Source of the DNA: Rhodoferax sp.
GTDB taxonomy: Bacteria; Pseudomonadota; Gammaproteobacteria; Burkholderiales; Burkholderiaceae_C
Length of the DNA stretch: 6,341 bases
Direction of reading: 5' to 3'
NCBI GenBank assembly: GCA_021731215.1
Contig: JAKFXU010000193.1
Coordinates: 1-6,341 of the forward strand
Shown here: one piece after another, positions 2,509 to 5,798 of the stretch
Numbering within the stretch: the stretch's first letter is position 1
Layout of the letters: every line of letters begins with the position of its first letter
Notes under the pieces: generated by a model
Database searches by the model: none
Seen by the model: the letters and a program-made list of their open reading frames with translations, nothing else
What the model was told of the DNA's origin: nothing
Translations under genes and position numbers: made by a program

Positions 2509-3189
2509 ATGTTCTATGTCTATGGCGTTAGCGGGCAATCATTTCGGGGCTCAATGGAGCAACTGCGCCAGATTGAGCGCGTCGGCGCGTCGGCCCGCGC
2601 CAACGCCATCAAGCCGGTTAAACGCGATGGGCTCGACCCCGGCTATGCTGCCATCGGCAGCGTTGCCGGGCCGCTGCCGGCAGCGCCCAGCGACGAGGCG
2701 CATCGCAGCGCCTTGGCCGCTTACGCCCAGACCCAGAAGGTGGAGCAGCCGCGCCAGCCCTTGCGGCGGGTCGATGAGTTGATGAGCCGCCCGGTGATCA
2801 CCCTGCCCGATAGCGCGACGGTGCTGCAGGCCTGGCAACTGCTGGCCCAGCAGGGCGTGGGTCAGGCGCCGGTGGTCAATGCGGCCGCCACGCTGGTGGG
2901 TTTGTTGTCCCGGGCTGACTTGATGCGTCCCGAACACCTGCCAACGCCGGACAGCAATGCGCTGGTGTGGCGCGCTCTGCTGGCGCAAAGCGTGGTGGAC
3001 ATCATGCGCACGCCAGTGCCCAGCGTGGCGCCCGATACCGATATCCGGCGCGTGGCGCGCGTTCTGCTCGATACCGGATTGCCGGGTCTGGCGGTGGTCG
3101 ATGAGCAGGGTCTGGTCAGTGGTTTTATTTCGCGCTCCGACATCCTGCGCGCGGTGGTGACGGACCCGCCACTGGACCTCTGGGGTTAA
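2509..3189 (+). CDS. Two-CBS-domain protein of unknown partner
   Basis: A soluble 226-residue protein with a tandem CBS pair (Bateman module). CBS pairs usually bind adenine nucleotides or related ligands and regulate an attached or partner protein. CBS1 spans about residues 88-140 (VDELMSRPVITLPDSATV ... GLLSRADLM) and CBS2 about 160-217 (VVDIMRTPVPSVAPDTDI ... GFISRSDILRAV); both carry the usual D-M-x-x-P-V opening and S-R-x-D closing patterns, the latter often contacting the ligand ribose and phosphate. The first 85 residues (MFYVYGVSGQSFRGSMEQLRQ onward) have no motif I recognise, show an Ala/Pro-rich linker at about 51-85 and have no signal peptide. No catalytic domain is fused, so it probably works as a nucleotide-sensing regulator or is of unknown function. 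The start is fixed by a strong ribosome binding site. No neighbour reveals the partner. Confidence 0.88.
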   Translation: MFYVYGVSGQSFRGSMEQLRQIERVGASARANAIKPVKRDGLDPGYAAIGSVAGPLPAAPSDEAHRSALAAYAQTQKVEQPRQPLRRVDELMSRPVITLPDSATVLQAWQLLAQQGVGQAPVVNAAATLVGLLSRADLMRPEHLPTPDSNALVWRALLAQSVVDIMRTPVPSVAPDTDIRRVARVLLDTGLPGLAVVDEQGLVSGFISRSDILRAVVTDPPLDLWG

Positions 3190-3190
3190 C

Positions 3191-3262
3191 CTGGCCCCCA
3201 CGCTTGTCGCTACGCGTACTGCGCTGCCCCCCGAGGGGGCTGGCCTTGCTTGGGGCGGCCCG
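3191..3262. repeat. GC-rich hairpin, probable dispersed intergenic repeat (REP/BIME-like)
   Basis: This non-coding block just after the CBS gene contains a perfect inner stem, GCCCCC (3226-3231) pairing with GGGGGC (3235-3240) around a three-base loop, and an imperfect outer stem, GGCCCCCA (3193-3200) against TGGGGCGGCC (3251-3260). The design, with CGCTACGCG-like sequence between the arms, resembles GC-rich repeats I associate with Comamonadaceae intergenic regions; that is recall, not a search result. It could also act as a transcription terminator or 3' stabiliser for the CBS gene from the left, or formerly for the tRNA gene from the right, although no T-run follows. Confidence 0.55.
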
Positions 3263-3280
3263 GCGCGGCGGTTAGTGCTC

Positions 3281-3335
3281 TGGCGCAAGCTCAGGATTCG
3301 AACCCTGGAAACCTTGCGGTTTGCCGGTTTTCAAG
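3281..3335 (-). repeat. Duplicated 3' half of tRNA-Ser(UGA): distal attachment-site copy
   Basis: These 55 bases match the 3' half of the intact tRNA-Ser gene (4552-4607) in the same orientation, from the encoded CCA end (TGG on the + strand at 3281) through the T arm and variable arm to the 5' edge of the anticodon loop. There are two differences: one substitution in the acceptor strand (position 3286, C instead of G) and one missing G in the T stem near 3294. The match begins exactly at the tRNA end and stops exactly at the anticodon loop, which is the usual core for tyrosine-recombinase integration into tRNA genes. It lacks the 5' half and cannot form a functional tRNA. It is read here as the displaced original tRNA 3' end. 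Confidence 0.85.
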
Positions 3336-3480
3336 TCTCCAGCAGAAATCAGTAAAAATCAACGGCTTAGGCTGCTTTCATCTCCACAACTCCGCAATTT
3401 AAGCCCCCGAAATACTTAATAACGAGGCCGGTTCAGTCTTGCGTTGCGGAGATGGCATCGCGGGCAAAAAATAAACAAAA

Positions 3481-3511
3481 GTGTTGCGTTTTACATTGAT
3501 AAACACAACAC
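3481..3511. promoter_or_regulatory. 31-bp imperfect palindrome, candidate HicB operator
   Basis: GTGTTG at 3481-3486 pairs with CAACAC at 3506-3511; inside, GTTT (3488-3491) pairs with AAAC (3501-3504) and CA with TG around a central T at 3496. In all, 12 of 15 symmetric positions are complementary. It lies 20 bases before hicA and covers the candidate -35 box. Chromosomal HicB proteins with a C-terminal helix-turn-helix, as here, repress their own operon by binding palindromic DNA, so this is the natural operator. Confidence 0.55.
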
Positions 3512-3523
3512 ATCTGTTATTAT
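3496..3523 (+). promoter_or_regulatory. Candidate hicAB promoter
   Basis: TTGATA (3496-3501) and TATTAT (3518-3523) each match the sigma-70 consensus at five of six positions with 16-bp spacing. Transcription would begin near 3530, at or next to the hicA start codon, giving an almost leaderless hicA. The -35 box lies within the palindromic operator candidate. An alternative -35, TTTACA at 3490-3495, has no equally good -10 partner. Confidence 0.45.
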
Positions 3524-3530
3524 TCGCAGC

Positions 3531-3710
3531 ATGAACTCCAAGCAGATGAAGAAGTGGCTGGAACAGCAAGGCGCTACCTTTCAACCCGGCAAGGGTTCCC
3601 ATTTGAAGGTGTTCCTGAACGGTAAGCAGTCTGCCCTGCCCATGCACGGTACAACAGAACTCGGCAAGGGACTTGAAGCCGTTATTAAACGCCAACTTGG
3701 TTTGAAGTGA
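3531..3710 (+). CDS. hicA: HicA family toxin, mRNA interferase
   Basis: HicA is a small double-stranded-RNA-binding-fold ribonuclease that cleaves mRNAs and stops translation when free of HicB. The 59-residue product is the normal size. It starts with MNSKQMKKWLEQQGA, a typical HicA N-terminal helix, followed by the catalytic strand KGSHLKVF with the conserved His24 and by LPMHG (36-40), then the basic C-terminal helix GKGLEAVIKRQLGLK. ATG 3531 is chosen because homology starts there; an in-frame upstream ATG at 3444 would add 29 unrelated residues and run through the promoter and operator. No Shine-Dalgarno precedes ATG 3531 (TTATTATTCGCAGC), so translation of the toxin should be weak. Its stop is nine bases before the hicB ATG, typical of the toxin-first hicAB order. 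All key residues are intact, so the toxin is probably functional. Confidence 0.93.
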   Translation: MNSKQMKKWLEQQGATFQPGKGSHLKVFLNGKQSALPMHGTTELGKGLEAVIKRQLGLK

Positions 3711-3718
3711 GGAAAAAT

Positions 3719-4135
3719 ATGTTTGACTACCCTGTGACCCTGACCCCCGATGACGGCACCGTGTTGGTGACGTTTGCCGATGTGCCCGAGGCCATCACCT
3801 TCGGCGTGGATGAGGATGAAGCCTTGCTTCAAGCTGTGGACGCATTGGAAAGCGCTCTGTCCTTCTACGTGGATGCCCGTAAAGCGTTGCCCGCTGTTAG
3901 CCAGCCAGCACCCGGACAGAAAACGGTGCGCCCGTCAGCACTGGAGTGCGCCAAGCTCGGTGTGTATCAGGCGATGACCGAACAGGGCATCAAAAAATCA
4001 GAACTGGCGCGTCGCTTGGGCTGGCACATGCCACAAGTTGACCGCTTGTTTGACCTGCGTCACGCCTCTAGGCTAGATCAGATTGAGGCGGCAGCGCTTG
4101 TGCTCGGTCGGCATGTCGAGATAACGGTAGCCTGA
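3719..4135 (+). CDS. hicB: HicB family antitoxin with C-terminal helix-turn-helix
   Basis: HicB neutralises HicA by covering its active site and represses the operon. The 138-residue product has the HicB RNase-H-like fold at about residues 1-55 (MFDYPVTLTPDDGTVLVTFADVPEA, then DEDEALLQAVDALESAL), a Pro-rich linker (56-75), and a C-terminal XRE-type helix-turn-helix at about 79-135 (GVYQAMTEQGIKKSELARRLGWHMPQ ... RLDQIEAAALVLG). This helix-turn-helix type of HicB is the E. coli K-12-like class rather than the ribbon-helix-helix class. ATG 3719 is preferred over the in-frame GTG at 3707, because GAGG at 3709-3712 stands six bases before it and the protein then begins with the family-typical MFDYP. 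The ribosome binding site overlaps the hicA stop, suggesting coupled or independent strong translation of the antitoxin. Confidence 0.93.
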   Translation: MFDYPVTLTPDDGTVLVTFADVPEAITFGVDEDEALLQAVDALESALSFYVDARKALPAVSQPAPGQKTVRPSALECAKLGVYQAMTEQGIKKSELARRLGWHMPQVDRLFDLRHASRLDQIEAAALVLGRHVEITVA

Positions 4136-4142
4136 TTGCCTG

Positions 4143-4352
4143 ATGGAGCAAAGCGAGTTCGTCATCGGGCTGGAGTTTTGGACGCAAGCCGGACGATGGC
4201 GCTGCACTGATGTTGGTTCGCGGACAATCTGCGCCATCAAACTCGAAGGCGATCCGCTTGACTGGAACGGGCCACCCTACAGCATCGTCGAGCACGTATT
4301 CGATGAATACGATTTCGATGGGCTTTATGCCAGCGAGACTGATGTTGCGTAA
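4143..4352 (+). CDS. Small hypothetical protein downstream of hicB, putative third operon member
   Basis: A 69-residue acidic, soluble protein with no signal peptide or membrane segment. I cannot assign a function. It has a distinctive composition: aromatic EFWTQAGRWRCTDVGSRTI (11-29), then a segment with NGPPYSIVEHVFDEYDFDG (47-65). The TDVGSRT and NGPPY...VFDEYD blocks look like a conserved small-protein family that I recall loosely from accessory loci, without certainty. The ATG is seven bases after the hicB stop on the same strand, so co-transcription is likely; there is no clear Shine-Dalgarno, which suggests coupling to hicB. Its stop codon directly abuts the stop of an opposing reading frame. 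It could be a modulator of the HicA/HicB pair, an unrelated cargo gene, or a domain-sized remnant. Confidence 0.6.
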   Translation: MEQSEFVIGLEFWTQAGRWRCTDVGSRTICAIKLEGDPLDWNGPPYSIVEHVFDEYDFDGLYASETDVA

Positions 4353-4547
4353 TCACTGGCACGCGCTGACCGCCGCTTCAAGCTCGGCCTTGTAGCCTTG
4401 CCGCTGCAATCGTTCAGCGCGTAGCGCCTTCATCTGATTCCAAATGCCGGAGCCGAGCGGCAGGCCATCCACGGCGAATAGCGGGCGCTGCGGGGGCTTG
4501 TTGCCTACCGGCTTTGCATAGCGCCGAACTTCGCTAAGTTGTTGTTT
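4353..4547 (-). pseudogene. Unrecognised reading-frame fragment, 3' end of a gene truncated at the tRNA junction
   Basis: On the minus strand an open frame of 64 codons runs from the bases next to the tRNA 3' end to TGA at 4355-4353. It reads [19 protein letters not shown] then [19 protein letters not shown] and a charged helical tail MKALRAERLQRQGYKAELE followed by AAVSACQ. Codon third positions are rich in G and C and the composition is protein-like, more so than the competing frames. There is no good start: an in-frame TAA sits at 4550-4548, directly beside the tRNA CCA, and the only internal starts are GTG at 4472 and ATG at 4433. It looks like the end of a gene whose front was lost at the integration junction, or a small gene with an unusual start. 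I do not recognise the family. It ends tail to tail with the 69-codon gene, without a gap. Confidence 0.45.
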
Positions 4548-4549
4548 TT
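4527..4549 (+). terminator. Possible weak terminator for the rightward island transcripts
   Basis: AACTT (4527-4531) pairs with AAGTT (4536-4540) around a CGCT loop and is followed by GTTGTTTTT (4541-4549). The stem is short and AT-rich, so efficiency would be low, but it sits just before the convergent tRNA gene where a terminator for hicAB would be useful. Confidence 0.25.
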
Positions 4550-4551
4550 AT

Positions 4552-4639
4552 TGGCGGAAGCTCAGGGATTCGAACCCTGGAAACCTTGCGGTTTGCCGGT
4601 TTTCAAGACCGGTGCAATCGACCACTCTGCCAAGCTTCC
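4552..4639 (-). tRNA. tRNA-Ser (anticodon UGA), CCA encoded
   Basis: Read on the minus strand, the 88 bases fold into a class II tRNA: acceptor stem GGAAGCT (4639-4633) with AGCTTCC (4562-4556), discriminator G at 4555 and encoded CCA at 4554-4552. The anticodon stem CCGGT/ACCGG holds the seven-base loop CTTGAAA, with anticodon TGA at 4605-4603, which reads UCA and other UCN codons. The long variable arm AAACC-GCAA-GGTTT is the serine hallmark, and the T arm is CAGGG-TTCGAAT-CCCTG. All stems are intact, so this is the working copy. Its 3' half is repeated at 3281-3335. If an element integrated here, this 3' half was supplied by the element, which keeps the tRNA functional. Confidence 0.95.
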
Positions 4640-4648
4640 GAGCCGCGT

Positions 4649-4654
4649 ATTCTA
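4649..4654 (-). promoter_or_regulatory. Candidate -10 box of the tRNA-Ser gene
   Basis: On the minus strand TAGAAT (4654-4649) matches the -10 consensus at five of six positions and lies nine bases before the first base of the tRNA. The region about 17 bases upstream has no good -35 hexamer. The spacing suits a short 5' leader removed by RNase P. Confidence 0.4.
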
Positions 4655-4745
4655 ACTGGCTGGCAGCCAATCTTCGGATTCGAGGCGGGACATTGGTTCT
4701 TTCGCGCCTGCAGGGGCGTTGCGGCATCGAGGCGATAAAAAGCCT

Positions 4746-5798
4746 TCAGTGCCGATGCGAATGATGTGCATCCGGGACGTGCGGATGGCTATGGTGCAGC
4801 GCTTCGTGTTGATGGGCATGGCTGTGCGCCCCAGCCGGCAGGGGGTCGTGCACATGGTTGTGATGGCCGTCGTCGTGCGAGTGGGCATGTTCGTGCGCAA
4901 CGGCCTCATGCCCATGTTGATGTGCGTGGTTTTCCGCCAGATGCAGCAGCACGCCGAGCAACATCAAGAGTCCGCCGGCGGCGGTCAAGCCACCGGCTGA
5001 ACGTTCACCGAGCACAAAAGCCGCCAGCGCGCCCATGAACGGGGCAAACGCAAACACCGAACCGGTGCGCGCCGCGCCGAAGGCCCGCTGGGCCAGCAAA
5101 TAAAAGCGCAGACTCAGGCCGTAGCCGGTGGCGCCGACGGCGAGCAAACTCAGTGCGGCGGTGGTCTCCGGCGTCGGCTCGCCCAGACTCATGGCCAGCA
5201 CGGTGGTGGCGCAAACGCCCAGCGCTGCCTTGGCCAGCACCACCTGCGCCGGGTCGCGCTCGGCCAGCGCGCGCGACAGGGCGTTGTCCACGCCCCAGGC
5301 GGCCGTGGCCACCAGCACCGCCAGCAGGCCCATCAACTCGACGCCGCCCAAGCGGCCCCGATCAAACACCAGCAGCACGGCGCCGGCCAGCAGCAACAGC
5401 ATGGCGAGCCAGACGCGCCGGCCCATCGTTTCGTGATACAGCTTGCAGGCCAGCAGCGCGGTGAACAGCGCCTCCAGGGTGAGCATCAGGGACGCGCTGG
5501 TGCCACTGGTGCGCTGCAAGCCCCACGCCAGCGCCACCGGTCCGAGCACCGCACCGAAGCCGGCCATCGCCAACAGGCGAGCGAGGTCGCTGCGTTGCAA
5601 GCGCGCCTCCCGCTGCACCGGCTGCCTGAGCAGTATTCCCATGGCGGCCGCGCCGGCGTACAGCAGGGCCGCGGTGGTGAAGGCGCCCAGACCGCTGCCA
5701 AAGCGCTGCACCAGCGGCGTGCTGACCCCGAACAATAGGGCGGCCAACAGGGCCAGCGCGCCGCCGCGCAGCGCCGGACTCGATAAATTGCGGGGCAC
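4746..5798 (-). CDS. EamA/DMT-superfamily transporter with a histidine-rich C-terminal tail
   Basis: A 350-residue inner-membrane protein. Residues 10-288 contain about ten hydrophobic segments arranged as two EamA repeats, with characteristic ends LTLEALFTALLACKLYHETMG (106-126) and FAPFMGALAAFVLGERSAGG (251-270). DMT-superfamily members with this layout export or import small metabolites; the substrate here cannot be read from sequence. The unusual part is the tail at 291-350, with 24 His in 60 residues, mostly as HxH and HH, plus Asp and Glu. This suggests binding of Ni, Co, Zn or a similar metal, so metal transport or metal sensing is a reasonable inference, not proven. Translation starts at a GTG (5798-5796) with no Shine-Dalgarno; a 17-codon leader ORF ends four bases upstream and may feed ribosomes to it. 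The upstream neighbour gene lies on the same strand, so an operon is likely. Confidence 0.88.
   Translation of the reverse strand: MPRNLSSPALRGGALALLAALLFGVSTPLVQRFGSGLGAFTTAALLYAGAAAMGILLRQPVQREARLQRSDLARLLAMAGFGAVLGPVALAWGLQRTSGTSASLMLTLEALFTALLACKLYHETMGRRVWLAMLLLLAGAVLLVFDRGRLGGVELMGLLAVLVATAAWGVDNALSRALAERDPAQVVLAKAALGVCATTVLAMSLGEPTPETTAALSLLAVGATGYGLSLRFYLLAQRAFGAARTGSVFAFAPFMGALAAFVLGERSAGGLTAAGGLLMLLGVLLHLAENHAHQHGHEAVAHEHAHSHDDGHHNHVHDPLPAGAHSHAHQHEALHHSHPHVPDAHHSHRH

Follow-up and report, generated by a model that had tools for sequence, protein, structure and literature searches.

A probable remnant of an integrative element that retains a predicted HicAB operon at the tRNA-Ser(UGA) gene of a Rhodoferax sp.

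We analysed a stretch of 6,341 bases from Rhodoferax sp. (contig JAKFXU010000193.1; hereafter the window), an entire contig of a 507-contig draft assembly (GCA_021731215.1, labelled G000; 84.7% complete), in which a predicted HicAB toxin-antitoxin (TA) operon lies between an intact tRNA-Ser(UGA) gene and a displaced copy of that gene's 3' half. From left to right, the interval holds the displaced half, an arm of 88 nt, hicA with its leader, hicB, a third gene (orf69), a minus-strand fragment of an open reading frame (ORF), a terminus of 63 nt and the intact tRNA gene (Table 1), which is the sole tRNA that ARAGORN reported in the window (as tRNA-Ser(TGA)). The GC content, counted over 200 bases at a time, is 46-60% within the interval and 65-74% in the flanking CBS and EamA genes. 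No integrase is encoded inside the interval, as judged from its ORFs, and the PF00589 matches of the assembly are all located on other contigs.

Table 1. Coordinates and characteristics of the features in and next to the interval
Feature	Position	Strand	Characteristics
Displaced 3' half of tRNA-Ser(UGA), distal attachment-site half	3281..3335	-	1 substitution and 1 missing base relative to the intact gene
Integrase-side arm	3336..3423	.	contains AGTAAAAATCAACGGCTTAGG; just an 11-nt match to the integrase-side arm of G464
hicA leader	3424..3530	+	79% identity across 63 nt with the corresponding leader in a Limnohabitans metagenome-assembled genome (MAG; L146:5311-5373), whose operon is hicA-hicB-orf69
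hicA, predicted HicA mRNA-interferase toxin, 59 amino acids (aa)	3531..3710	+	Pfam PF07927 8.7e-9, above cut-off; PHROG 353 toxin 5e-15
hicB, predicted antitoxin, 138 aa	3719..4135	+	PHROG 497 'HicB-like' 6.5e-30; C-terminal part resembles helix-turn-helix (HTH) regulators (weak matches)
orf69, 69-codon third gene after hicAB	4143..4352	+	69 relatives besides itself at E<=1e-3
Rz1-like phage lysis lipoprotein, C-terminal ~46 codons, N-terminal part missing	about 4353..4494	-	protein and DNA matches to phages
Element terminus adjoining the tRNA 3' end	4489..4551	.	homologous to the G464 island terminus
tRNA-Ser(UGA), intact	4552..4639	-	single full-length copy found in the assembly (84.7% complete)
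tRNA gene 5' flank, native	4640..4683	.	84% over 43 nt to L101 and L106; 80% over 44 nt to L103

The tRNA 3' half is repeated in direct orientation with 54 of 56 aligned columns identical: 3294-3335 equals 4566-4607 exactly (42 nt), and 3281-3295 agrees with 4552-4566 at 14 of 15 positions. The repeat opens with nt 33, where the anticodon loop begins (the anticodon being at 35), and closes with the encoded CCA, and an exact direct repeat of at least 18 nt was found in 0 of 300 first-order Markov sequences built from window positions 2601-5200. This confirms an earlier note on this DNA, which had described the 3' half as present twice, in direct orientation, with its ends at tRNA landmarks; the geometry also supports the note's proposal of a unit bounded by attachment sites with a crossover in the anticodon loop. 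When the half at 3281-3335 is joined to the sequence from 4608 onward, ARAGORN predicts a tRNA-Ser(tga) of 87 nt (88 nt in the intact gene), and either flank alone yields none. An intact tRNA with a directly oriented displaced fragment on its 3' side and an anticodon-loop crossover is what the window shares with the tRNA islands of the Islander class that have anticodon-centred (A) attachment sites (PMC4383910). It differs from them in being only 1.2 kb long and in having no integrase gene, and the Islander search, according to the same paper, includes finding integrases. As the window is a complete contig of a draft assembly, presumably a metagenome bin, reads from two tRNA-Ser copies might have been joined by mistake, but we find such an artefact scarcely credible: the exact repeat of 42 nt is below the commonly used assembly k-mers, which are longer, and similar flanks occur on both sides in syntenic members of the genus (to the left CBS, to the right the tRNA 5' flank). 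It is this similarity to syntenic genomes that identifies 4640-4683 as native.

The terminus links the window to an integrase-bearing island. Positions 4493-4551 are 81% identical over 59 nt (E 2e-10 within that locus) to the same position in G464, a genome from another genus of the family, where a 9.1-kb island is bounded on one side by a displaced 3' half of tRNA-Ser and on the other by an intact tRNA-Ser(UGA). The G464 integrase (Pfam PF00589 and PF13356) begins 160 nt from the displaced half and is followed by a DUF3987 protein (PHROGs: DNA helicase). Among the 58 tRNA-Ser(UGA) 3' flanks compared with the terminus, the local score was 62 for G464, 27 for G022 and 8-20 for all the rest, and the maximum over 2000 shuffles against the G464 flank was 27. 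A terminus pattern built from the window, G464 and G022 (up to 3 mismatches) occurred in 2 of 89 genus genomes (G000 and G022) and in 3 of 399 family genomes (G000, G464 and G215); read backwards it occurred in none, and G130 was missed. The G464 integrase retrieved five of the 399 family genomes at E<=1e-60 (G464, G130, G215, G488 and G492), so that G215 was reached independently by integrase and by terminus, ~14 kb apart on one contig. No tRNA-Ser half was present in what was fetched of G488 and G492; one of these two stretches stops at a contig end. Outside these genomes, the integrase gave one weak match in viral contigs, one plasmid record at 31% identity and four phage records at 28-30%, and neither the exact 41-nt repeat core nor the left-arm or terminus pattern occurred in viral contigs.

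G464, G130 and G215 have a common layout: displaced 3' half, integrase, DUF3987 or AAA helicase, element-borne tRNA-Ser(UGA), spacer and native 5' half. The native 5' half, of 39 nt, is found 17-20 nt upstream of the intact tRNA, beside a TTTCAAG core, in these three and at the visible end of G022, a truncated element in a member of the window's genus. The native 5' half covers nt 1-39 and the displaced 3' half nt 33-88 in G464 and G130, so that the two have 7 nt in common, those of the anticodon loop. Joining the native flanks at the common 7-nt core gave a tRNA-Ser(UGA) in 3/3 cases (G464, G130 and G215; ARAGORN) and single flanks gave none, which indicates that the intact tRNA of these genomes is element-borne. 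Both G130 and G215 are listed as 100% complete, and no tRNA-Ser(UGA) other than the element copy was seen in them, as the other near matches run through ARAGORN were tRNA-Ser(CGA) or split-gene fragments; one 31-nt match in G130 fell outside this check, and in G215 the query recovered even the element tRNA only as a 45-nt piece, so that a diverged second gene could be missed. The cargo beside the tRNA varies: an N6/N4 methylase with a weak BglII-like match in G130, DUF2321 in G464, PADLOC Hp1/Hp2 and a type IV restriction-like protein in G215, and, from reading of the sequence, a trypsin-like gene in G022. Judged from their sequences, these four elements appear to split the host tRNA-Ser(UGA) at the 7-nt anticodon-loop core and to place a complete tRNA-Ser(UGA) beside the junction, an arrangement that resembles tRNA-dependent phage lysogeny.

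We infer that the interval is probably the collapsed remnant of an integrative element that entered tRNA-Ser(UGA) at the anticodon loop and that keeps a predicted HicAB operon and no integrase. This reading is based on the repeat geometry, the homology to the G464 terminus, the shared layout and the low GC content, together with purifying selection on the operon and a truncated lysis gene ending at the terminus (both described below). An integrase would have driven the entry of the element, the far end of which would be the displaced 3' half, and the intact tRNA would bear the element terminus on its 3' side. To judge from G464, G130 and G215, in which this order is seen, the tyrosine integrase of the ancestor was probably located next to the far half, with the cargo next to the tRNA. 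The integrase and replication genes would have been lost, and the fragment of the lysis gene fused to the terminus; their adjacency is observed, and the order of events is our suggestion. HicAB appears to be maintained by purifying selection, and its loss would be expected to kill cells, judging from the HicAB family. Either a 3' half carried by the element may have restored the tRNA of the window, which is the route of canonical islands, or a whole tRNA gene may have come with the element and later recombined with the native 5' half. The earlier note's alternative of an island that lost its integrase is supported.

Several points weigh against a collapsed island. G464 is alone in matching the terminus at a score clearly above noise, as the score of G022 equals the shuffle maximum and those of G215 (18) and G130 (16) lie within the noise, and these three are therefore tied to the window only via G464 and the common layout. 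A native 5' half, left over upstream of the tRNA in all four relatives, is lacking at that place in the window, and no related integrase adjoins the displaced half of the window; as the sequence from 4640 onward is native flank, the window is a probable derivative and no present-day member of the G464-type elements. The arm at 3336-3423 is unlike the integrase-side arms of the relatives and found no relative among the fetched loci compared, and hicAB, orf69 and the lysis lipoprotein are absent from the stretches fetched from G464, G130, G215 and G022. The left flank has changed too, since a small conserved gene that lies between CBS and the tRNA in related genomes is missing in the window. Finally, the collapse is inferred from a single locus.

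The HicAB operon is recognised through a HicA family match over the curated Pfam cut-off and a HicB family match to PHROG 497; against Pfam PF15919, HicB stays below threshold (E 0.0022, 18.6 bits vs a 27-bit cut-off). As in HicAB type II TA systems, the small HicA comes first and HicB directly after, whereas the third gene, orf69, is a difference; it also follows hicAB in the Limnohabitans MAG (L146) and in a Polaromonas MAG (L147). Because this gene order is the same in both MAGs and the L146 leader is 79% identical, the operon is probably older than the island. Searches of NCBIfam with hicA, hicB and orf69, of PADLOC with hicB and orf69, and of Pfam and PHROG with orf69 gave no match, and in a fold search with the orf69 model (predicted local distance difference test, pLDDT, 87) 0 of 335 PDB matches reached E<=1e-3. 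In comparison with G482, nonsynonymous (dN) and synonymous (dS) divergence was dN 0.022 and dS 1.23 for hicA, and dN 0.054 and dS 0.83 for hicB; in the remaining comparisons dS was >1.3 or not computable (saturated for G362; the G219 hicA has an in-frame TAG). On these values against relatives, both genes appear to be subject to purifying selection. The earlier note's reading of hicAB as genes enclosed in the element, and hence as its cargo, is supported.

Relatives of hicAB occur in 11 other genomes (G019, G005, G482, G219, G362, G133, G043, G378, G177, G282 and G409), and within the 2.5-19 kb fetched around them there was neither a tRNA-Ser nor a half copy. This distribution, and the hicAB-orf69 operon elsewhere (L146 and L147, the former with a similar leader), would fit independent events, in which a partial tRNA duplication and a separate hicAB-orf69 insertion became neighbours by chance. 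We hold such a coincidence to be highly improbable, given that both repeat ends are tRNA landmarks used by integrases and that the inner terminus has its match in an island that bears an integrase and occupies the same tRNA gene. The closest hicAB found (84% DNA identity) is located at 5992-6589 of L327 (G482), among ORFs reading like a type III CRISPR locus. In L328 (G219; 403-2268), a hicAB of 78% DNA identity adjoins an integrase with a PRK09692-type match and, from reading of the translations, tail-like ORFs.

Next to the terminus lies the fragment of a lysis gene. It shares the C-terminal 46 codons with phage Rz1-like outer-membrane spanins, and it differs from them in lacking the lipobox half and the partner genes. 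Those last 46 codons match proteins mostly of 82-101 aa with a signal part and lipobox, both absent from the fragment, at 73-87% identity for the ten best matches and 78-85% for the proteins of four viral contigs compared. Two full-length relatives belong to PHROG family 3580, to which no function is assigned there, and one of them also gave a weak match to PHROG 456, an Rz-like spanin. Homology to phage DNA runs from 4353 to ~4494-4500 and homology to the G464 terminus from ~4489 to 4551, so that the two abut and meet in a scar, with the N-terminal half of the gene missing. A free gene was rejected for this ORF, as it has no start and no signal part.

The fragment could suggest that the interval is the end of an unrelated prophage with an anticodon-loop integrase, of which the fragment and hicAB are the remains, the likeness to G464 being that of a shared attachment-site arm only. 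Besides the 73-87% identity of the fragment to its ten best matches, the gene is no more than 1 kb away from the end of the contig in 47 of the 80 IMG/VR viral loci that contain relatives, as expected of a last gene; in one of these loci (L239) it is preceded by endolysin-like and Rz-like genes (translations read by eye) and followed by a convergent integrase, and the hicAB of G219 has its integrase and tail-like neighbours. We nevertheless consider a prophage end unlikely. Relatives of hicA or hicB were present in 0 of the 80 viral loci (E<=1e-2, in the fetched flanks), for which reason an arrival of hicAB together with the lysis gene was rejected; the 41-nt repeat core had no exact match in viral contigs; and it is the N-terminal, not the C-terminal, side of the fragment that faces the tRNA, which would require that most of the prophage was deleted right up to the terminus. 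A collapsed island with a fused lysis-gene fragment remains our preferred reading.

The earlier note had raised a minimal selfish element, without an integrase of its own and moved in trans by one encoded elsewhere. For this speak the two halves resembling attachment sites, the compactness of the unit and the three PF00589 matches on other contigs of the assembly, one of which (C24, 399 aa) has a PRK09692-type match. We give this view little credence. Apart from the window itself, the 1.2-kb unit was not found in either of the two sets searched, 40 related genomes (including 24 from the genus) and 399 genomes of the family. The assembly yielded no G464 integrase relative at E<=1e-60; it is incomplete, so that the genome may encode an integrase elsewhere. 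The C24 integrase (L334, 119-1902), the one integrase that could be placed, lies at a contig edge and adjoins not tRNA-Ser but a transfer-messenger RNA (tmRNA) gene, its likelier target and a second likely tRNA-type integration site in the assembly. Furthermore, the displaced half shows decay, no match was found for the arm, and the enclosed ORF is a truncated gene, a sign of decay, all of which speaks against such an element. Nothing found supports mobilisation of the interval, and it is best read as an internally deleted fossil with HicAB under purifying selection.

The window piece alone is a decayed tRNA island of an ordinary kind. The more useful lead is provided by the complete elements in three other genomes and the cut one in the window's genus, which appear to replace the host tRNA-Ser(UGA). 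Such elements would extend tRNA-dependent lysogeny, described for actinobacteriophages (PMC10865867), to helicase-bearing elements without recognised phage structural genes. They differ from the actinobacteriophage cases in their size of 9-16 kb, in carrying a DUF3987 or AAA helicase and in having no structural phage gene recognised, and their tRNA dependence is a prediction from sequence; the tRNA of the window, in turn, is itself rebuilt or healed. According to the same paper, both tRNAs rebuilt from a 3' half and whole tRNAs occur in mycobacteriophage subcluster K6, and the authors state that the spread of this lysogeny beyond actinobacteriophages needs investigation. A similar case has since been reported for Sinorhizobium prophages (PMC11476347). 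Of the two papers on Sinorhizobium meliloti prophages in tRNA genes, one describes an incoming tRNA gene that substitutes that of the host and likens this to tRNA-dependent lysogeny (PMC11476347, PMC12429752); they differ from our elements as alphaproteobacterial prophages, and the phiLM21-like ones are said there not to show tRNA substitution. Our literature search (titles and abstract openings, with most subscription papers outside its scope) returned no paper on a comparable HicAB remnant or on tRNA-supplying elements of Burkholderiales. It is conceivable, though we advance it only tentatively, that helicase-bearing and apparently non-phage elements split the host tRNA-Ser(UGA) and supply their own copy, so that the cell depends on the element for an essential tRNA, and that in the window the tRNA addiction and that of HicAB outlived the rest. 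The window would then suggest a route by which such an element shrinks to a tRNA and an addiction module.

Several observations concern the tRNA gene and orf69 more generally. Among tRNA-Ser(UGA) loci of the genus, two allele types of acceptor and T arms alternate, and G042 and G058 show an identical 30-nt tRNA 5' flank with different allele types, as if whole tRNA genes had been swapped. The displaced half was also considered as a pointer to the native tRNA allele of the window and rejected, as the genus and the family do not have the same alleles. In named genomes, 80 of 117 orf69 loci were kept, mostly proteobacterial judged by their titles. The orf69 family carries the motif WRCTDVG and follows varied small operons (L145-L227), and it is possibly a roaming third gene. 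Its upstream neighbours include HicB in L146 and L147 and a Phd/YefM pair in a Methylocystis plasmid; 43 such neighbours, picked by eye out of 82 loci, comprised HTH_3 (5), DUF2442 (2), MazE-like (1) and PIN (1), and many others were not toxin-antitoxin genes.

In the genus, CBS and tRNA-Ser(UGA) were found in the orientation of the window, within 20 kb and on one contig, in eight genomes besides it (89 genomes searched), at distances of 418 bp (G081), 1,076 bp (G083), about 1,570 bp (G014), 2,182 bp (G067), 4,414 bp (G061), 8,105 bp (G054), 15,938 bp (G066) and about 19 kb (G048). None of the eight has relatives of hicA or hicB or a copy of the 55-nt half between CBS and the tRNA (repeats of the host tRNA were checked in six; G014 and G048 were covered by BLAST with the half of the window only), broadly as the earlier note had anticipated for empty sites. 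G081 is nearly empty, with no insert and with the small conserved gene that is absent in the window. The site seems to attract different elements. In L108 (G066), the ORFs of a 15.9-kb insertion at 2710-18647 include an integrase-like one of 433 aa, close to the end at CBS, and a C5-methylase-like one (translations read), and the insertion has a 15-nt repeat of the tRNA 3' end; in L101 (G054), an 8.1-kb insertion at 1221-9325 reads like a filamentous prophage (Zot-like and resolvase-like ORFs, by eye) and has a 14-nt repeat of the tRNA 3' end. Between CBS and the displaced half of the window, at 3190-3280, there is a GC-rich hairpin, similar to repetitive extragenic palindromic (REP) repeats, which recurs in other genomes and in contig C278 of the same assembly.

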